NCBI RefSeq assembly: GCF_039994875.1
Contig: NZ_CP121196.1
Span: forward strand, 682,001-746,000
Direction of reading: 5' to 3'
Origin: Telmatobacter sp. DSM 110680
GTDB taxonomy: Bacteria > Acidobacteriota > Terriglobia > Terriglobales > Acidobacteriaceae
Length of the DNA: 64,000 nucleotides
The notes under the pieces were generated by a model. That model was not told where the DNA came from. It saw nothing but the letters and a program-made list of their open reading frames with translations, and made no database searches. The translations under genes were made by a program, and so were the position numbers. Positions 4,233 through 35,499 of this stretch are shown here, one piece after another (positions within the stretch are counted from its first letter, which is position 1; each line of letters opens with the position of its first letter).

Positions 4233-4327
4233 GATCGAAGCCGCTACAATGGAGCGAGCCTCCATTTGACCTTTCTGATCAAACTTGGGCTGCCAATCCC
4301 GGCCTTACTCCGGAAACGAAAAATAGA

Positions 4328-27278: not shown

Positions 27279-29570
27279 TCAGCGGCCCGCGAGGGCCACC
27301 TCTTGCTCTTCAACTTCAACCTGAGTGCTTCTGCCTGTTGTTGAATTGCTGTCGATTGAATGCCCAGTCAAAAGGCCGAGCACGAACCACGCGAACAGTG
27401 CTGCTCCAATCGCAAACAGGATGTCTCCGGGAACTCTCATCCAGCGCAATGTCTGCATCGAACTGGACTGCATGAACTCGGAGGAACGCGCATACCAGGT
27501 GCCGTGTTCAATCGATGCCCATGCCTGCAACAATCCGACCGGCAGCATGCTGAGGATGACCATGAAGATCAATCCAAAGTTGAGAGACCAGAAGGAGAGC
27601 TTCAGCGGGGTCTCCTTCCATTTGCGCCCTGGATTAAGCGCGCGGAGGCAGAACAGCGTGAGTCCGAGGCCAAGCATTCCGTACACGCCGAACAGAGCCG
27701 TGTGACCGTGAACGGGAGTAAGGTTGAGTCCCTGCACGTAATAAAGGGAAATCGGTGGATTAATAAGGAAGCCGAATAAGCCCGCTCCCACAAGATTCCA
27801 GAATGCAACCGCGACGAAGAAATAGATGGGCCACTTGTAGTTGGCGATCCACTGAGACTTCCTTGTCGGTTGCGCGAGGCGAATGTTCTCCCAGGCTTCG
27901 TAACCAATCAATGTCAGTGGCACAACCTCAAATGCGCTGAAGATTGCACCCAGGCCAATCACCGCCGGTGTCGCACCCGCGAAGTAGAGATGATGAAACG
28001 TTCCGATGATGCCCCCCGACAAAAAGATCGTCGTCGAAAAGAGCGCCGCCTTGGTAGCGGTGCGAATCTCGATCAGCTTGAGCCGCGTGAATAAGAATCC
28101 GATCACAACAGTGGCGAACACTTCGAAGAAACCTTCAACCCAGAGGTGAACTACCCACCAGCGCCAGTATTCCGCTGTAACCAGGTGGCTGCGCTGGCCG
28201 TACATCAGTCCGGCAGAATAGAAGAGCGGGATTGCGATGCTGGAGATGAGAAACAGCGTGAGGAGTGCGCGGTCTTCACTCTTGCGAACCAGTGCCGGCT
28301 TGAGGGCCGCAATCATCAGGACAAGCCACAGTACCAATCCGACGAACAGCAGAATCTGCCAGAAGCGTCCGAGGTCGACGTATTCATAACCCTGGCTGCC
28401 GAACCAGAACCACATGTTGCCAAGACGCTGTTGAATACCCATCCATTCGCCGGCGAGCGATCCGCCAACGACGAGGATCAGTGCGCCAAAGAGTGCATTG
28501 ACACCGAGTCGCTGATACTTCGGCTCGTGACCGCTGACCGCCGGCCCAACGTAAAGACCCGTTGCCAGCCATGAGGTCGCGATCCAGAAAATCGCGATTT
28601 GCAGATGCCACGTGCGCGTGACGGCATACGGTAAGTACTTCGCGAGCGGAAATCCAAAGAAGGCCTGCCCCTCGACTCCGTAGTGAGCAGTCAACACTCC
28701 CATCAAAATCTGCACACCCCAGAGAATCACCACTACGTAAAAATACTTCAGAGTCGCACGTTGCGACGGGGTTGGCTTGAATACAAGGAAAGGATCGCTT
28801 TCTGGATAAGGCCCGTGAACGAGTTCCTTTTCCTGCGACGCATACCACCAGACAAGTCCGCCAATTCCGGCCAGCAATCCAACGAAGCTGAGAACGCTCC
28901 AGAGCACAGCGCCCGATGTTGGCACATTGCCGATCAGCGGCTCATGCGGCCAGTTATTCGTGTACGTCGTTTCAGAACCCAGGCGATCCGTGCTGCAAGC
29001 CCACGAAGTCCACCAGAAAAACGCGGCGAGTTGACGCTGCTTTGCGGCATTGGTCAATGCGCCACTGGGGATGGCATAAGCCGACCGACCCGTGGCAAAA
29101 ACGTCGGTGTAGTAAGCGCGGAGTTGCTCAAACGCCGCAGCGCGATCGTCGCTTAGCGTCACGCGATTGCGCGAGACGTCATAGGTGTTGGTTCGCATCT
29201 CGCGAATTAACCGCGCCTTGAAGATCGCCTGTTGATCCGGTCCGAGAGCCTCGAAATTAGACGCCCCAGCCCTGACCGCCCAGGTGTTCAGCAGAATCTC
29301 CGATTCCCGGTGCAGCCAATCCGCACTCCAGTCGGGTGCAACATAAGCGCCGTGGCCCCAGACTGTGCCGATCTCCTGCCCGCCGATCGATTGCCACACT
29401 CCCTGGCCGTCCGTGATGGAACTGCCAGTGAAGAGAAGCTGCCCTTCAGCGTTGTACACGTCTGGGATAGGCGGAGCTTCGCTGATCATCTTCCGCCCGA
29501 CTCCACCGAGAACAGCGAAAGATCCAATAATGACGATGGCCAATGCCACCCAATAACGTTTGTAGGACAT
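27279..29570 (-). CDS. norB: Quinol-dependent nitric oxide reductase (qNor)
   Basis: Reduces two NO to N2O at the inner membrane using quinol. The 763-residue length matches single-subunit qNor. The N-terminal membrane helix and periplasmic extension (about 1-225) stand in for the separate NorC subunit. The catalytic part has about 12 helices. Ligands are visible in Val-Val-His-Leu-Trp-Val-Glu, Gly-Thr-Phe-His-His-Leu-Tyr and Val-His-Gly-His-Thr. GAGGG lies eight bases before the ATG. It has its own upstream region, with a shared dyad at 29751-29766, and follows nnrS on the same strand. It serves NO detoxification or the N2O step of partial denitrification; no nitrite reductase is in the window. 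Confidence 0.95.
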   Translation of the reverse strand: MSYKRYWVALAIVIIGSFAVLGGVGRKMISEAPPIPDVYNAEGQLLFTGSSITDGQGVWQSIGGQEIGTVWGHGAYVAPDWSADWLHRESEILLNTWAVRAGASNFEALGPDQQAIFKARLIREMRTNTYDVSRNRVTLSDDRAAAFEQLRAYYTDVFATGRSAYAIPSGALTNAAKQRQLAAFFWWTSWACSTDRLGSETTYTNNWPHEPLIGNVPTSGAVLWSVLSFVGLLAGIGGLVWWYASQEKELVHGPYPESDPFLVFKPTPSQRATLKYFYVVVILWGVQILMGVLTAHYGVEGQAFFGFPLAKYLPYAVTRTWHLQIAIFWIATSWLATGLYVGPAVSGHEPKYQRLGVNALFGALILVVGGSLAGEWMGIQQRLGNMWFWFGSQGYEYVDLGRFWQILLFVGLVLWLVLMIAALKPALVRKSEDRALLTLFLISSIAIPLFYSAGLMYGQRSHLVTAEYWRWWVVHLWVEGFFEVFATVVIGFLFTRLKLIEIRTATKAALFSTTIFLSGGIIGTFHHLYFAGATPAVIGLGAIFSAFEVVPLTLIGYEAWENIRLAQPTRKSQWIANYKWPIYFFVAVAFWNLVGAGLFGFLINPPISLYYVQGLNLTPVHGHTALFGVYGMLGLGLTLFCLRALNPGRKWKETPLKLSFWSLNFGLIFMVILSMLPVGLLQAWASIEHGTWYARSSEFMQSSSMQTLRWMRVPGDILFAIGAALFAWFVLGLLTGHSIDSNSTTGRSTQVEVEEQEVALAGR

Positions 29571-29750
29571 GATTTTCCCTCACTTAATTAGGCCGAAAAT
29601 AGTGTGTGATGCTCCCCCGACAAAGCGACATTCCAATCCGTGTGTTTCCGCGGCGCATAAACTCGCAATGGGATGCCTCTGGAAGTCATTGAAAGTCCCT
29701 CAAGAACATTCGCACTGAGGCAACAGTAGCGTTCAGTGAAAGGGGAATGC

Positions 29751-29766
29751 AGGGACTTAGGTCACT
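29751..29766. promoter_or_regulatory. AGNGA-N6-TCNCT dyad upstream of norB
   Basis: AGGGACTTAGGTCACT. The dyad centre (29758.5) is 33 bp from a minus-strand TACTGT that fits a -10 element, giving class II activator geometry and a 5-prime leader of about 150 bases. The core is identical to the site at 32884-32899. Confidence 0.7.
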
Positions 29767-29822
29767 ATCCGGCGTAGAAACTTCAAAATTACCGAGACTG
29801 ATCATCCCAGCAAAAAACGAGT

Positions 29823-29848
29823 CGCGGTGTGATCTAAATCACACCGCG
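29823..29848 (-). terminator. Perfect palindrome: nnrS terminator and CRP/FNR-like site
   Basis: Eleven-base arms CGCGGTGTGAT and ATCACACCGCG flank a four-base centre. On the minus strand, downstream of nnrS, it is followed five bases later by six T residues, so it reads as an intrinsic terminator. Its middle, TGTGATCTAAATCACA (29828-29843), also fits TGTGA-N6-TCACA exactly. It lies 253 bp upstream of norB. The terminator role is better supported than the operator role. Confidence 0.7.
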
Positions 29849-29903
29849 AGCGGGGGTCCCGTTCATCTTTCCGTGACCTTACGGGGGATTATGCCTTGGG
29901 TTG

Positions 29904-31238
29904 TTAGCTCTCGGTCGCAAATGCCCGGCGGCCGAGCAAGAAGGTAGCCATGAGGTTTGAAGCGAACAGAAGCACCCCGCTCAATTCCAGCACGCCTGAA
30001 ACAGGCAGCACCCTCCACGCGAACGAAGCCAGACCTTCATAGGCCAAAGGCTCAAAAACAACTCGCAGCAGGCATCCGGTCTGAAGACATACCAGGCTGA
30101 AGAACATCAGCTGCGTGCTGAAGATCCGCTGAATGCCGGCAAAGTGAGGCAGGATGCGCGGCCCAATCGCGAACACCATCGTTGCCGCGAATCCGACCGT
30201 GAGCGCATGACGCGAAGCACCCCAGATGCCCCCGTGGACATCCATAAATGCCGCCCAGACACTCATCGATCCCGCCACAATAAGCCATGCATAAGCCAAA
30301 CGAATGAAGACCGGAAAACTCGGATGGATACCATGGATTTTGGCGTGGCCATGCGGACGTTCTGTTAAGCGAAGAGCAATCCCAATCGTGCCTGAGCCAA
30401 GCGCAAACAGAATCGTCGCCGGCTTGGGCAAGCCAGAAACCCCAAATAGAACACCTGTGATGGCCATCAACAGAGCCATGCGAAACCAACGTACACTCGG
30501 CTTCGATATCGCGAGAAACGACGGCAGCCATCGTGCCGAAAACCCCCACACCACTGGCACCACAAATCCCCAGCCAAGCAAGACGAGATATTTTTGATCG
30601 AGCGAGTGAGGAAATGACCTCAGGCCGCCCTGCAAGCCCAAACGAACGCACTCAACAAAATTGAAGATGACACCAGCCGCAAGCCCCGCAGTGCCAATCA
30701 AAACCGAGACCATCCACATTTCCATCGGCGCCTTCGCCTTATTCCCGTCGCCCGATTCCGGCAGCTTGTGGTGTGAAGCAGCGTATAGAAACAGCATCAC
30801 CGCAAGAAGCTCAAATCCCGCGGATACCGGTAGCAGAGTGCGCCACTGGCACCCATAAATATTTCCAAACCAGCGCATCGCAACGCCGGATGTCCACAGC
30901 AGGTAACAGGAAAGAGGAACGCGAAGGACCGACCGTCCATGCGCAGGCTGGGAATAGAAGCCGATGCCAAGAATAAAACTACCAATCCATCCGAACATCT
31001 GTGCGTGCCCATGACCTTCCATCCATGCGGCCGGCAATGTCCCCAGCCCATGATGCGCACTGATCGCCATCAGGTTTGAAAACCCCAGCAGCGTCCCAGG
31101 CAAAGCCATAAAGAAAAGTCCGCTGCCAATCCATGCGCGAAGCACCAAGCTCTTTTGCCGTTCGCGCGCGATGATCACTGAGTTCTCACCGACTGCACCG
31201 ACGGAAACAGATTGATCCAACAACGAAATCGTACCCAT
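29904..31238 (-). CDS. nnrS: NnrS-family haem/copper membrane protein
   Basis: 444 residues with about 12 hydrophobic helices. The early Glu-Gly-His-Gly-His-Ala-Gln motif and further His residues (Pro-His-Gly-His-Ala-Lys-Ile-His) fit NnrS, a membrane protein that protects cells against NO and is regularly found near NO reductases. Its biochemical activity is not settled. It starts two bases after the RIC gene ends, so it is in one operon with it, and it is followed by a strong terminator palindrome before norB. Confidence 0.88.
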   Translation of the reverse strand: MGTISLLDQSVSVGAVGENSVIIARERQKSLVLRAWIGSGLFFMALPGTLLGFSNLMAISAHHGLGTLPAAWMEGHGHAQMFGWIGSFILGIGFYSQPAHGRSVLRVPLSCYLLWTSGVAMRWFGNIYGCQWRTLLPVSAGFELLAVMLFLYAASHHKLPESGDGNKAKAPMEMWMVSVLIGTAGLAAGVIFNFVECVRLGLQGGLRSFPHSLDQKYLVLLGWGFVVPVVWGFSARWLPSFLAISKPSVRWFRMALLMAITGVLFGVSGLPKPATILFALGSGTIGIALRLTERPHGHAKIHGIHPSFPVFIRLAYAWLIVAGSMSVWAAFMDVHGGIWGASRHALTVGFAATMVFAIGPRILPHFAGIQRIFSTQLMFFSLVCLQTGCLLRVVFEPLAYEGLASFAWRVLPVSGVLELSGVLLFASNLMATFLLGRRAFATES

Positions 31239-31240
31239 GG

Positions 31241-31972
31241 CTAGCTCCTTACCTTGATTTCTGCTTCCAGTTGAATGGCACGCGGAAACAGAACATCATT
31301 CTCAAGATGCACATGCTGTTTGAGGTCTGCCTCAAATTCCCGGAGCCCCGAAAAGAGAGCGGTATGCGTCGCACATGCCCATGAAGGTGCCTCAAAGTGA
31401 CTGGTGATGCGAATGAGCTCCCGCATGATGTGATCGGCAGATTCATGTTCCTGCTCCATCATGAAGATCGGGTGAGCGACCGAACGGAAACATGCATGCG
31501 CGGGAGGATAGGCGACGATCGATTCCTGATCGATCTGCGAGATGAACGGAAAGAGCACCTGCTCTTCCTTTTCGATATGCGCATACATCTCGCTGCGAAG
31601 CGCCTCAACTAATTCGGCGATTCTCACCAGTTCGGGATCTCGATCACTCCTCTTTGTCGCGACCTTTGACGCCATCTCAGCCAGGGCCGGGAGCACTTGA
31701 CGAACGCGATGATGATGAACGCGGACGATGTGTTGAATCAGCCGGCCAAGCGATACATCGAGAGGATCGAATGCCAAGCCACCACGTTCCTTAACCTCTG
31801 CGTCAGCAAGTTTTTCGAGAACTTGATCCACAGAGAGTTGCAGCTCCCGGCACACGGCTTCGAGCGACAAGTCCGCCTGCACGCACAGATCAATGTCAAA
31901 TCGATGAAAGATGCTGGCTGCGGATGGGCTGCTAGTTACGATCTCGCGGATAGACTGCGCTGCGGTGGACAT
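31241..31972 (-). CDS. RIC/ScdA-like di-iron Fe-S cluster repair protein (variant)
   Basis: 243 residues. The N-terminal DUF542-like part (1-75) has Phe-Asp-Ile-Asp-Leu-Cys-Val-Gln in place of the usual Gly-Ile-Asp-Tyr-Cys-Cys-Gly-Gly, so one Cys is missing. The C-terminal hemerythrin-like domain has the iron ligands, with His-Ile-Glu-Lys-Glu-Glu, Glu-Gln-Glu-His-Glu-Ser and Lys-Gln-His-Val-His-Leu-Glu-Asn. RIC proteins repair Fe-S clusters damaged by NO or peroxide. GGAGAG before the ATG at 31972 supports this start over a GTG two codons earlier. It is in one operon with nnrS. A canonical paralogue lies at 34780. Confidence 0.87.
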   Translation of the reverse strand: MSTAAQSIREIVTSSPSAASIFHRFDIDLCVQADLSLEAVCRELQLSVDQVLEKLADAEVKERGGLAFDPLDVSLGRLIQHIVRVHHHRVRQVLPALAEMASKVATKRSDRDPELVRIAELVEALRSEMYAHIEKEEQVLFPFISQIDQESIVAYPPAHACFRSVAHPIFMMEQEHESADHIMRELIRITSHFEAPSWACATHTALFSGLREFEADLKQHVHLENDVLFPRAIQLEAEIKVRS

Positions 31973-32017
31973 AAGCACTCTCCACTAGCAACCCTAGCGT
32001 TCAAGTAAGAACGGAGC

Positions 32018-32033
32018 AGTAACTTATGTCACT
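32018..32033. promoter_or_regulatory. AGNGA-N6-TCNCT dyad upstream of ric variant
   Basis: AGTAACTTATGTCACT. The centre (32025.5) is 32 bp from a minus-strand TAGGGT (31991-31996), as expected for a class II activator site, and 53 bp from the start codon at 31972. Confidence 0.65.
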
Positions 32034-32049
32034 CGGAGTCGAAGATGAT

Positions 32050-32754
32050 CTAAGCCGAAGCCTCGAGAAGTGCTTTCAAACCGCTGAGATCCTTGACGAC
32101 GATCTGTCGCGCGTCCACGTCCAGCAGTCCTTCAGCCTGAAGGCGCATCAGGTTGCGGGAAACGAGCTCGCGCACGGTGCCTAGTTGATTGGCAAGTTCC
32201 TGATGGGTTGCGGGAAGCTGGAATTCAATTCCGCGAGCAGTCTTCTTTCCTTCGCTCTCTGCCAGCTTGAACAAGACTGAAATCAAGCGCTGCCGGATCG
32301 TGGTAAACGATAGTTCCTCAATAATCCCCACCAGCCGTCGCAACCGCGTCCCCACCACCTGGAGAACTTTCAATGCAACTTCAGGATGCTCCATGCAGTA
32401 CGCCTGAAAATCGCGACGCGAGATGAATGCAATTTCTGCATCCTCGATCGCAACGGCGGAGGCCGGAAATGGACCGCCATCGAAGACTGGCAGTTCCGCG
32501 ACCGACTCCCCTGGAACATTAATCGCAAGAACCTGTTCTCGGCCGCTCATCGAAGTCTTGAAAATACGAACCTTGCCCTGTGCGATGATGTGCAGGCCAT
32601 TGCACGGCTCGCCTTCAGAAAAAAGCAACTCCCCGGCACTGAACAGCTTGCGAACTGTTCGCGCGGCCAGCGTCTTCAACTCCGTCGGCGTGAGGCTCGA
32701 TAACAGTGCGGTCTTACCGAGGGCAGTGGCGAGATCGGTGCGTTCAGCAGTCAC
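32050..32754 (-). CDS. Crp/Fnr-family transcriptional regulator
   Basis: 234 residues from a GTG start. The N-terminal cyclic-nucleotide-like beta-roll (about 20-130) is followed by a dimer helix (about 130-160) and a winged helix. The recognition helix reads Val-Arg-Glu-Leu-Val-Ser-Arg, which has the FNR Glu-x-x-Ser-Arg and also an Arg in the place of CRP Arg180. No cysteine cluster for an oxygen-sensing 4Fe-4S centre is visible, so an NO-responsive DNR-like sensor is more plausible than FNR. Its position inside the NO cluster, divergent from the radical SAM gene, makes it the likely regulator of the shared dyads. A partial dyad, AGGGA-N5-TCCCT at 32807-32821, lies upstream and could allow autoregulation. 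Confidence 0.9.
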   Translation of the reverse strand: MTAERTDLATALGKTALLSSLTPTELKTLAARTVRKLFSAGELLFSEGEPCNGLHIIAQGKVRIFKTSMSGREQVLAINVPGESVAELPVFDGGPFPASAVAIEDAEIAFISRRDFQAYCMEHPEVALKVLQVVGTRLRRLVGIIEELSFTTIRQRLISVLFKLAESEGKKTARGIEFQLPATHQELANQLGTVRELVSRNLMRLQAEGLLDVDARQIVVKDLSGLKALLEASA

Positions 32755-32883
32755 TCGAGAATCTTACGGCATGAGCTTAGCACCCGCGTCATCTTCGGTT
32801 GCGTGAAGGGACTTACTCCCTGCCAGCCGTGCGACCTCAGATCAAAGTTTCGCGCTGAATAATTCTGAGAATGCGACGCCGCC

Positions 32884-32899
32884 TGGGACTTAGGTCACT
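32884..32899. promoter_or_regulatory. AGNGA-N6-TCNCT dyad upstream of radical SAM gene
   Basis: TGGGACTTAGGTCACT, sharing 15 bases with the norB site. It lies 34 bases before the ATG at 32934. The nearest -10-like element (TAGGTT) is 37 bp from its centre, less ideal than at the other three sites. Confidence 0.65.
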
Positions 32900-32933
32900 G
32901 CATCCGCCCTCTCTTCGCGGTCTCATAGGTTGC

Positions 32934-34082
32934 ATGAACCCGCAGATCAACACCACCGACTTCAACGAACGTCCATTCATCGCCATCTGGGAAGTGACCC
33001 AGGCTTGCGACCTTGCTTGTGTCCATTGCCGCGCGTCCGCTCAGCCGGACCGCAGTCCGATGGAACTGAGCACAGATGAGGGCAAACATCTGATCGATGA
33101 AATCACGGCCTTGAAGGTTCCTGTCTTTGTATTGACGGGAGGCGATCCCATTAAGCGGCCCGATCTCTTTGAACTGATCGCACACGCCCGCTCAGCGGGA
33201 GTCAGAGTTTCGCTGACGCCAAGCGCCACGCCTTTGCTGACGAAGGAAATTATTGTGAGGCTCAAAGAGGCCGGCCTCGCGCGGCTCGCAGTGAGCATGG
33301 ACGGTGCAAGTCCAGAAACCCACGACGCATTCCGCGGGATGAGCGGTTCATTCGCGCGAACCCTTGATGCCGTGCGCTGGGCAAATGAGGTTGGACTACC
33401 TTTGCAGATCAACACCACGTTCAGCCGAAGGAACATCAACGAGATTGACAACATTGTCGCCTTGATGGAGAAGCTGAAGATAACCCTCTGGAGTGTCTTC
33501 TTCCTCGTTCCTACCGGACGCGGAAAGCTGAACGATCTACTGAGTGCGGACGAGTTCGAATTGGTCTTCGCTAAGGTTTATAGTCTGTCCAAAACCGCGA
33601 GCTTCGACATTAAAACAACCGAGGCGCAGCACTACAGACGCTACCTCTTGCAGCAGCGCGTTGCCGAACGAAAGTCAGGAATCAACCTCCCCTCACAGCA
33701 CGACAGAGCAGCAGACTCAATTGGACGCGCACCGCGCGGTCTTAACGATGGCAAGGGTGTCATCTTCATCTCCCACAAAGGAGAAGTGTTTCCGAGCGGA
33801 TTTCTTCCCCTCTCAGCCGGTAGTGTCCGGGAGCAAACGTTGGCCGAAATATATCGCGAGTCGCCGCTGTTCCGCGATTTGCGCAACACCTCCAAGCTCG
33901 AAGGGAAGTGCGGCGCCTGCGAATTCAAAGAAATCTGTGGCGGATCGCGAGCCCGGGCTTATGCTTTGACTGGCAACCCTAATGCCGAAGAGCCGTGCTG
34001 CTCCTATATTCCAAAAGGCTACATGCAGCCGGCACCGCAGTTGAAGACGTCGACGACGCTTCATGTTCTTCAGGGCGCCTGA
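32934..34082 (+). CDS. Radical SAM/SPASM-domain protein (TIGR04053-like)
   Basis: 382 residues. The radical SAM motif Cys-Asp-Leu-Ala-Cys-Val-His-Cys is near residue 25, Gly-Gly-Asp-Pro is the SAM-binding segment, and a C-terminal SPASM Cys set follows, including Cys-Gly-Ala-Cys-Glu-Phe-Lys-Glu-Ile-Cys-Gly-Gly and Glu-Pro-Cys-Cys-Ser. The layout recalls NirJ/AhbD haem-maturation enzymes and the family I know as TIGR04053, whose reaction is not established. The ATG at 32934 is chosen because the operator-like dyad would otherwise lie inside the gene. It is followed 59 bp later by a hemerythrin gene. Sitting in an NO cluster, it may mature a haem or peptide cofactor. Confidence 0.85.
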   Translation: MNPQINTTDFNERPFIAIWEVTQACDLACVHCRASAQPDRSPMELSTDEGKHLIDEITALKVPVFVLTGGDPIKRPDLFELIAHARSAGVRVSLTPSATPLLTKEIIVRLKEAGLARLAVSMDGASPETHDAFRGMSGSFARTLDAVRWANEVGLPLQINTTFSRRNINEIDNIVALMEKLKITLWSVFFLVPTGRGKLNDLLSADEFELVFAKVYSLSKTASFDIKTTEAQHYRRYLLQQRVAERKSGINLPSQHDRAADSIGRAPRGLNDGKGVIFISHKGEVFPSGFLPLSAGSVREQTLAEIYRESPLFRDLRNTSKLEGKCGACEFKEICGGSRARAYALTGNPNAEEPCCSYIPKGYMQPAPQLKTSTTLHVLQGA

Positions 34083-34141
34083 GAGCCAATCGTCCCCGAA
34101 TGGACGACAATGACAAGGAACGGAAGTAAAGAGGAGATGTC

Positions 34142-34672
34142 ATGGCGATTCAGATTGGCGCAAAGCCGGACAGTGGTTTCGATGACCCGATTGGCATGCT
34201 CAAGGACTGCCACAGAAGGATCGAGAGCTTTCTCCACATTCTCTGCGTTGTAGTCGATCGCGCACAGGGCAGAGCTCTTACCAACGAAGAGCGCGCTGCG
34301 GTTCAAGCTGCACTGCAATACTTCCGTACCGGCGGGCAGCGCCACACCGCGGATGAAGAGCAATCCCTCTTTCCCCGACTGCGCAAATCGGATGCACAAG
34401 CCTTCGAAGAGATCGATCGGCTGGAACATGATCATCGCGAGGCAAACGGTCTGCACACGTCGGTCGAACATCTCTATACAGCCTGGATTGAATCCAGCGG
34501 CCTGACTCCGGACGAAACGCGGCAGCTACTTTCAAAAACGTCGCGCCTCAAGCAACTCTATTCTGACCACATCCAGGTCGAGGAAACGACGGTCTTCGCT
34601 CGCGCCGCGCAGGTGCTGGACCGCAATGCCCTCACCGCGATTGGCACTGAGTTCCGATTTCGGCGCAAGTAG
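34142..34672 (+). CDS. Hemerythrin-like HHE-domain protein
   Basis: 176 residues of a four-helix bundle with expected iron ligands: Met-Leu-Lys-Asp-Cys-His-Arg-Arg-Ile-Glu, Arg-His-Thr-Ala-Asp-Glu-Glu, Glu-His-Asp-His-Arg-Glu and Asp-His-Ile-Gln-Val-Glu-Glu. It probably binds a di-iron centre and could sense or scavenge O2 or NO. GAGGAG precedes the ATG. It follows the radical SAM gene on the same strand, with no separate dyad, and is probably in one operon with it. Confidence 0.87.
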   Translation: MAIQIGAKPDSGFDDPIGMLKDCHRRIESFLHILCVVVDRAQGRALTNEERAAVQAALQYFRTGGQRHTADEEQSLFPRLRKSDAQAFEEIDRLEHDHREANGLHTSVEHLYTAWIESSGLTPDETRQLLSKTSRLKQLYSDHIQVEETTVFARAAQVLDRNALTAIGTEFRFRRK

Positions 34673-34718
34673 CCTGCCTCTGCTGATTCCGCTAAAAAAC
34701 CTAATCAAATCTGTTCAG

Positions 34719-34734
34719 AGTGACCAAAGTCGCT
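34719..34734. promoter_or_regulatory. AGNGA-N6-TCNCT dyad upstream of ric
   Basis: AGTGACCAAAGTCGCT. The centre (34726.5) is exactly 32 bp from TAGGCT (34756-34761), a fit to a class II activator promoter, and 53 bp from the start codon. Confidence 0.7.
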
Positions 34735-34779
34735 GTCGCCGTATTTCGATTTCTCTAGGCTGTATTCAAGGAGATCGAA

Positions 34780-35499
34780 ATGACCGCAACCACGCAAACC
34801 GTTCGCGAAATCGCACTGGAACAGCCGACCGCAATCCGGGTATTTGAACAATTTGGAATCGACTATTGCTGTGGAGGCCGCAAACCTCTGGCCGAGGCAT
34901 GCGCTGCCGGAAACCTGGAAATTGACGCGGTCCTTGCTGCGTTGGAAGCGGCGGAAAAGAAACCCGGCACCGAGTTCGATAACTGGACCGATAAATCGTT
35001 GGAAAGCTTGAGCTCTCACATCGTCGCCAAGCACCACGCATATGTGAAAAATGAGCTGCCCAGGCTGGCCCAACTCGCGCAGAAAGTCGTCAATCGTCAC
35101 GGCTCAACCAAGCCAGAATTGCCGCTCATTGCGACTACTCTAAAGCATCTGGACGAAGAACTCACCCAGCATCTCGCCAAGGAAGAAGCGGTTTTGTTTC
35201 CCTATATCGCTCGTCTCGAGCAATCCATTTCCAACGGAACGCCCAGGCCGCATAGCTGCTTCGGCACGGTCTCCAACCCGATCGCAATGATGACCCAGGA
35301 ACACGACGCTGCCGGAACTCTGCTTGCTGAAATCCGCCGTCTGAGCGGAAATTTCACCACTCCGCCGGATGCCTGCCCGACTTTCCACGCGTTCTATGAC
35401 GGGCTGAAGGAGTTCGAGCAGGACCTGCATCAGCATATTCATCTCGAGAACAACATCTACTTTCCGCGCGCGATCGAATTGGAGAGGTCTGTCAGTTAA
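34780..35499 (+). CDS. ric: RIC/YtfE-type di-iron Fe-S cluster repair protein
   Basis: 239 residues. The N-terminal motif Phe-Gly-Ile-Asp-Tyr-Cys-Cys-Gly-Gly is complete. The hemerythrin-like domain has His-His-Ala-Tyr-Val, His-Leu-Ala-Lys-Glu-Glu, Gln-Glu-His-Asp-Ala and Gln-His-Ile-His-Leu-Glu-Asn, the usual di-iron ligands. It rebuilds Fe-S clusters after NO or oxidative damage. An AGGAG sequence lies before the ATG. It has its own promoter-proximal dyad, unlike the hemerythrin gene just upstream. Confidence 0.93.
   Translation: MTATTQTVREIALEQPTAIRVFEQFGIDYCCGGRKPLAEACAAGNLEIDAVLAALEAAEKKPGTEFDNWTDKSLESLSSHIVAKHHAYVKNELPRLAQLAQKVVNRHGSTKPELPLIATTLKHLDEELTQHLAKEEAVLFPYIARLEQSISNGTPRPHSCFGTVSNPIAMMTQEHDAAGTLLAEIRRLSGNFTTPPDACPTFHAFYDGLKEFEQDLHQHIHLENNIYFPRAIELERSVS

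Follow-up and report, generated by a model that had tools for sequence, protein, structure and literature searches.

GTGAC-N4-GTCAC dyads before nitric oxide defence genes of an acidobacterium are likely operators of a DNR-type Crp/Fnr regulator

The window analysed here is a 64,000-nucleotide stretch of Telmatobacter sp. DSM 110680 (contig NZ_CP121196.1, positions 682,001 to 746,000), from a single-contig genome of 5.99 Mb. It holds a cluster of nitric oxide (NO) genes in which four copies of a shared dyad stand before norB, ric2-nnrS, rSAM-hemerythrin and ric1, together with the gene of a Crp/Fnr protein that is their likely reader. The cluster runs in the order norB (-), nnrS-like gene and ric2 (-), regulator gene (-), rSAM and hemerythrin gene (+) and ric1 (+). 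In window coordinates, norB (27279..29570, minus strand) encodes a quinol-type NO reductase with the Pfam matches NorB cytochrome-c-like and COX1. The ric2 gene (31241..31978, minus strand, probably starting at the ATG at 31972) encodes a variant of the di-iron repair protein with ScdA_N and hemerythrin Pfam domains, and scores 191.7 bits on TIGR03652, below the cut-off of 204.7. Its ScdA_N domain has Leu-Cys-Val-Gln in place of the Cys-Cys-Gly-Gly of ric1. The second gene after ric2 encodes the nnrS-like membrane protein (29904..31238, minus strand). On the other side, the regulator gene (32050..32754, minus strand; 234 amino acids) is followed on the plus strand by the gene of a radical S-adenosylmethionine (SAM)/SPASM protein of family TIGR04053, here called rSAM (32934..34082; 485.5 bits versus a cut-off of 395), then, as the second gene of that operon, by the gene of a hemerythrin-domain protein recognized by Pfam (34142..34672), and by ric1 (34780..35499), whose product, an iron-sulfur cluster repair di-iron protein, exceeds the TIGR03652 cut-off with 238 bits. 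With the model of the haem b synthase AhbD, the rSAM protein reaches 362 bits, below the cut-off of 500. The gene names proposed in a preliminary description of the window hold overall, except that the window nnrS was matched by no Pfam model, even at an expect value (E) of 10; a scan of three homologues placed L071 above the NnrS cut-off (PF05940) and L062 slightly below it, and gave no match for the third.

The dyads are AGTGACCTAAGTCCCT before norB (29751..29766, minus strand) and AGTGACATAAGTTACT before ric2-nnrS (32018..32033, minus strand), both read on the gene strand, and, on the plus strand, TGGGACTTAGGTCACT between the regulator gene and rSAM, serving rSAM (32884..32899), and AGTGACCAAAGTCGCT before ric1 (34719..34734). 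All four are of the GTGAC-N4-GTCAC type. They had been described as AGNGA-N6-TCNCT, and the four coordinates and the constant 16-base-pair (bp) span stand; an exact match to that pattern is found only at 29751 and 34719, with one mismatch each at 32018 (AGTAA-) and 32884 (TGGGA-). As a motif it is too loose and was dropped, its exact matches being no rarer in the window than expected by chance (2 found versus 1.06 expected, with at least as many in 29 of 100 shuffles) and its one-mismatch matches fewer than expected (13 versus 25.6). The AGNGA half is a product of degenerate positions; the shared dyad itself is real and is best described as GTGAC-N4-GTCAC. The pattern AGTGACNNAAGTYNC fits all four sites, each read on its better strand. 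The 6.0-Mb genome contains five occurrences of it, of which four fall within these 5 kb, versus two of the reversed control pattern. Since AGTGACNNAAGTYNC was derived from the four sites, the real test lies in other genomes, where the pattern holds. The fifth site of the genome precedes a DUF2203 gene (L069), no TANNNT element was seen by eye at 32 bp from it, and it may be a chance match.

To follow the box in relatives, 169 matching stretches were collected, of which 102 encode a relative of the regulator, and the best 80 were used. Because several contigs are common to these 80 loci and to the loci of the relatives' genomes first compared, the two sets are not independent. A de novo search, run without being given the motif, scored symmetric five-base dyads with spacers of 0-12 and at most one mismatch in the 200-bp upstream stretches of start-complete genes. 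GTGAC-N4-GTCAC ranked first upstream of ric2 (38/39), rSAM (33/38), ric1 (29/34) and the regulator gene crp (53/78), against about 0.2 in shuffled upstream stretches, so that conservation of the dyad before orthologous genes, a test named beforehand, is borne out. Upstream of norB it was found in 23 of 24 stretches, tied for first place with GGGAC-N4-GTCCC, a count that includes overlapping sites. It was not among the eight dyads shown for nnrS (26 stretches) or the hemerythrin gene (34 stretches), both mostly operon-internal, before which the box is scarce.

These data bear directly on the reading that the dyads arose by chance or are remnants of common descent in the upstream DNA. The compared loci are related, and the behaviour of the exact AGNGA-N6-TCNCT pattern in the window would suit such a reading. 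However, the fixed columns of the box carry about 1.7-2.0 bits, versus mostly less than 0.5 bits within the norB and rSAM spacers, and a conserved box beside a diverged spacer therefore reflects more than shared ancestry. In addition, the constant spacing survives the thinning of near-copies, and boxes adjoin cluster genes elsewhere in the genomes. With this thinning and with operon-internal genes as controls, an artefact of shared ancestry was considered and rejected; the conservation beside a diverged spacer already refutes a reading by chance or ancestry, which we regard as extremely improbable.

The position of the dyads relative to putative promoters is equally regular. A TANNNT element 32-33 bp from the dyad centre, as proposed in the preliminary description for three of the sites, is present before norB (predicted -10 TACTGT, 29723..29728, minus strand, 33 bp), ric2 (predicted -10 TAGGGT, 31991..31996, minus strand, 32 bp) and ric1 (predicted -10 TAGGCT, 34756..34761, plus strand, 32 bp). 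The rSAM promoter of the window has no TANNNT at 32-33 bp, the nearest lying at 37 bp, and its candidate -10 is TCTCAT (32921..32926, plus strand, 32 bp). Among 132 box sites of the relatives (38 of ric2, 34 of ric1, 37 of rSAM and 23 of norB), the centres of box and TANNNT are exactly 32 bp apart in 70 sites and 33 bp apart in a further 6. The background is 12 of 3168 positions at distances 12-30 and 34-38, and farther out at most 3/39, at 53 bp. When near-copies are thinned, TANNNT at 32 or 33 bp is found in 22/23 ric2, 20/21 norB and 15/30 ric1 promoters. In class II activation the operator is centred at -41.5, and a TANNNT at 32 bp from the dyad centre fits this arrangement. Thus the conservation before orthologues and the TANNNT spacing support the earlier proposal of a local Crp/Fnr regulon over NO genes with class II spacing.

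For rSAM, the start codon itself keeps the register. Its distance to the box centre is 41.5-43.5 bp in 37/37 promoters (27/27 after thinning; start codons of the relatives were placed by tblastn against the window protein) and 42.5 bp in the window. Because of this distance, a leaderless rSAM transcript is predicted. At the norB and rSAM boxes of the relatives (L145-L224), the GC directly following the box (TGC with the last box base) is kept on the -10 side, whichever half-site faces it, and is perhaps part of a weak -35 element.

On the regulator side, the geometry is different. Regulator genes are preceded by 53 boxes with no more than one mismatch. For 37 of these the distance to the start codon is 23-28.5 bp, and each of the 37 has a TANNNT 15-18 bp from the box centre. 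Such a box would stand between -35 and -10, a position from which a bound protein is expected to repress. In the window, where TAAGAT (32761..32766, minus strand), about 6 bp before the GTG start, is the candidate -10 of the regulator gene, 137.5 bp separate the dyad centre from the regulator start codon, so feedback by overlap would not work there.

The regulator has the two-domain architecture of Crp/Fnr proteins (Pfam cNMP_binding, HTH_Crp_2 and Crp). Its AlphaFold model has a mean predicted local distance difference test score (pLDDT) of 91 and its Foldseek matches have the Crp/Fnr fold. CRP/GlxR head the matches listed, with DNR at rank 28 and HcpR at rank 29 (highest listed template modelling score, 0.64), and by plain score the best solved matches are GlxR and CRP, then DNR. 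Model and matches confirm the predicted fold but do not separate a DNR-like from a CRP-like protein. Arg-Glu-x-x-Ser-Arg, noted earlier in the recognition helix, is indeed present, and the named residues of the helix Gly-Thr-Val-Arg-Glu-x-x-Ser-Arg are invariant in 30/30 aligned orthologues. No N-terminal cysteine group of the FNR type was found, the only invariant cysteines being C51 and C120 (37/37 rows). An arginine of CRP contacts the phosphate of cyclic AMP (cAMP). The Arg-Thr of M. tuberculosis CRP is aligned with Phe/Tyr-Pro in the regulator, whose Pro97 is invariant in 37/37. In a tree of 20 rows, built with 11 of the 30 orthologues, with neither HcpR nor NnrR represented and with L229-L232 left out, the regulator groups with DNR, two Thermus Dnr-type proteins and a cyanobacterial protein (support 97/92, with long branches flagged), apart from CRP/GlxR and from three of its own paralogues. 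The genome has no Prismane/Hcp (PF03063) match, and an HcpR in the strict sense is therefore excluded.

The recognition helix can be confronted with the box. Rodionov et al. (2005; PMC1274295, excerpt) report that a G at position 3 of the box accompanies R180 and that an A at position 6 accompanies E181; they give wTGTGA-N6-TCACAw for Desulfovibrio HcpR (R180), TTGAC-N4-GTCAA for other HcpR1 proteins (Ser or Pro) and GTAAC-N4-GTTAC for HcpR2. Applied to the Arg-Glu helix, this R180/E181 rule predicts GTGAC-N4-GTCAC, as found; the box differs from the FNR box TTGAT-N4-ATCAA. The conserved half-site GTGAC combines the CRP-type core GTGA with the C of the HcpR1-type TTGAC-N4-GTCAA; being CRP-like and predicted by the published rule, it is not the unusual half-site that it was first taken for.

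We then looked across the phylum, where 20 of 149 sampled genomes, the window's genome included, encode a relative of the regulator at E 1e-50 or better. The 18 such loci that were read have Arg (12), Pro (2) or Gly (3) at the helix position, with one not resolved, and contain 12 GTGAC-type boxes (at most one mismatch, some inside genes) versus 1.9 for letter-shuffled boxes. An NTGAC-N4-GTCAN box lies within about 1.5 kb in 8 of the 12 Arg loci, and in 7 of these 8 each box has G in at least one half, the other half being ATGAC in L253, L256 and L258; L254 pairs one box that has such a G with an ATGAC/GTCAT box. The Pro locus L266 has CTTGAC-CCAG-GTCAA (1465-1478) between the regulator stop and a ferredoxin-like frame, a location that recalls the frdX target of HcpR1 (PMC1274295, excerpt). 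In the three Gly loci no NTGAC-N4-GTCAN box was found within about 1.5 kb. A strict rule in which R180 fixes G3 held only partly within the phylum, as some R180 members adjoin ATGAC boxes.

Regulator, ric and box also travel together. Among 35 genomes of the same genus, 22 have an orthologue of the regulator (best E 7.6e-98 or lower), and in the other 13 the best match (E 1.5e-22 or weaker) is another Crp/Fnr paralogue. A ric gene (TIGR03652, E 1e-20) is found in 21 of the 22 genomes with the regulator and in none of the 13 without it (Fisher p = 9e-9; several of the 13 are incomplete, with G004 and G007 listed as 100% complete). In the sole regulator genome without a ric match, G016, a ric1 fragment ends at the contig end. 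The pattern GTGACNNAAGTYNC occurs 6.2 times per genome with the regulator versus 2.2 times without it (Mann-Whitney p = 2e-6), whereas the reversed control pattern shows no such difference (4.5 versus 5.2, p = 0.57). Outside the regulator locus, 20 of 40 chosen sites lie at the start of another ric, norB, nnrS or rSAM gene, some of them being parts of the same cluster on other contigs. These 40 sites were chosen from among the sites listed, favouring A/T-containing centres with most G/C-centred sites omitted, so this proportion does not hold for all sites. Two of the chosen sites belong to regulator-less genomes (L113 in G035, L115 in G006) and had no cluster protein match. In three genomes a box stands 54-60 bp before the gene of a membrane 4Fe-4S polyferredoxin (L108, L117, L134), which may be an additional conserved target, and other boxes lie near YwiC (L120), a cupin-DUF2249 gene (L141), cytochrome bd subunit I and amine oxidase (L112), mobAB (L138) and a multihaem cytochrome (L127).

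It is conceivable that another Crp/Fnr paralogue, or an NsrR-like regulator of the Rrf2 family, reads the dyad and that the neighbouring Crp/Fnr gene is only co-regulated. The genome offers candidates: HTH_Crp_2 has nine matches, one of them the regulator itself, the helix of three paralogues carries Arg-Glu, and two Rrf2 proteins score above the cut-off. Moreover, in Thermus the similar palindrome CTTGACCNNGGTCATGG was assigned by gel shift to an NsrR protein, an overlap with the DnrT footprint being noted in the same excerpt (PMC5748679); by the R180 rule, CTTGACCNNGGTCATGG would also fit a DnrT box. On the other hand, the regulator-less genomes of the genus keep other Crp/Fnr paralogues and yet have neither ric nor an excess of boxes, and the box agrees with the helix of the regulator under the R180/E181 rule. 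We therefore consider a different reader quite unlikely and the neighbouring DNR-type regulator the probable box-binding protein.

Several observations weigh against this assignment or against the proposed regulon as a whole. A box with at most one mismatch precedes 4/26 nnrS and 4/34 hemerythrin genes, and none precedes 25/78 crp genes. TANNNT at 32-33 bp is found in none of the 27 thinned rSAM promoters and in only half of those of ric1, and the other 20 of the 40 chosen sites have no adjoining cluster gene. In the phylum, ATGAC-N4-GTCAT stands upstream of ric in G040 and G049, two genomes of the same order that lack a regulator orthologue, so that another protein may read a related box. No box of at most two mismatches precedes ric in G042, G043 or G051. 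G037 encodes an Arg-Glu orthologue and carries ATGAC-N4-GTCAT upstream of ric; the occurrence of ATGAC boxes with R180 members makes the specificity rule loose at position 3. In same-order genomes without a regulator orthologue, the loci L238 and L241 both have ATGACGGANGTCAT before ric; G043 has a related TATGA-N6-TCATA palindrome and G039 a weak one.

Collectively, these data point to a strongly conserved operator family, most likely that of a DNR-type regulator. We consider it likely that the four dyads are operators of this Crp/Fnr protein, a predicted NO-sensing class II activator of norB, ric2-nnrS, rSAM-hemerythrin and ric1. According to this model, the regulator would sense NO, by haem or by another route, and bind the GTGAC-N4-GTCAC dyads at -41.5; once bound, it would contact RNA polymerase in the class II manner and switch on the four units, with rSAM transcription starting at or one base before its start codon. 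In relatives whose dyad lies between -35 and -10 of the regulator gene, the same binding would repress that gene.

An alternative concerns the signal, namely that the regulon is real and responds, for instance, to low oxygen, nitrite or redox state, its NO genes belonging to an anaerobic response. The cytochrome bd, polyferredoxin, mobAB and multihaem cytochrome genes that adjoin boxes in relatives would suit such a response; Thermus DnrT works with the oxygen sensor DnrS (PMC5748679, excerpt), and no NO-binding site was identified in the regulator, in which C51 and C120 are invariant. Against it, the core targets in the window are all members of NO or nitrosative-stress families, and DNR, the characterized protein closest to the regulator among those in the tree, senses NO (PMC5748679, excerpt). 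A signal other than NO thus appears rather unlikely, and NO remains the more probable ligand of the DNR-type regulator. A more far-reaching proposal, which we put forward tentatively and hold to be possible rather than probable, is that a single 14-bp box would, under the control of NO, switch two leaderless transcripts in opposite directions (rSAM on; the regulator off in many relatives), run by an Arg180 DNR-type branch in Acidobacteriota, with TIGR04053 dedicated to NO defence.

Acidobacteria of subdivisions 1 and 3 have NO reductase genes without dissimilatory nitrate or nitrite reductase, and detoxification has been suggested as the role of these reductases (PMC5900883, excerpt). The control of these genes appears undescribed: our literature searches, which covered partial listings, found no acidobacterial NO regulon, no paper naming both Acidobacteria and HcpR, and none naming TIGR04053. 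The regulon would thus be of a known kind, now in a phylum for which none was described in the literature searched. With the box, the whole phylum can be scanned for this operator; the box also brings Acidobacteriota within the reach of the R180-G3 rule and ties the TIGR04053 radical SAM family to NO defence. The most novel elements are the predicted start of rSAM transcription at its own start codon and the sharing of the box with the regulator gene.

Among known systems, the Thermus plasmid Dnr-type regulators (L235, L236) resemble the regulator with 36% identity and with hemerythrin and DUF2249 genes nearby; the L236 protein is identified as the putative DnrT from its position after a GAF-domain gene beside nitrate reductase. 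They differ in their helix, Gly-Thr-Val-Pro-Glu-x-Val-Ser-Arg, with Pro instead of Arg. No GTGAC box was found in the Thermus and Acaryochloris plasmid loci, the latter showing nothing clear and the former having TTGACC-NN-GGTCA-type palindromes instead. Such palindromes (TTGACC-NN-GGTCAT type) lie near the Dnr-type genes at 4268, 6611, 10230 and 13147 of L235 and at 6674 of L236. Pseudomonas DNR (3dkw), of the NO-responsive class, falls in the same group as the regulator in the 20-row tree and has an effector domain likewise without the cAMP-contacting arginine, but has a TTGAT-N4-ATCAA box and a Pro-Glu-x-x-Ser-Arg helix. In E. coli CRP class II promoters the operator is at -41.5, with about 32 bp between its centre and the -10 element. 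The acidobacterial promoters share the GTGA core and the 16-bp dyad with them and differ by the missing cAMP-contacting arginine of the regulator, by local NO targets and by the predicted leaderless transcripts of rSAM and, in many relatives, of the regulator gene. The HcpR1 regulons of Desulfovibrio, other delta-proteobacteria and two cyanobacteria also have a palindromic box of the same spacing, and their regulators are described as without the FNR cysteine motif; in Synechocystis, the HcpR1-type regulator gene adjoins norB (PMC1274295, excerpt). In contrast to the HcpR1 regulons, the one proposed here belongs to a genome without hcp, in the phylum Acidobacteriota, and its boxes have a variable A/T outer base and combine the inner C of the TTGAC type with G at position 3.

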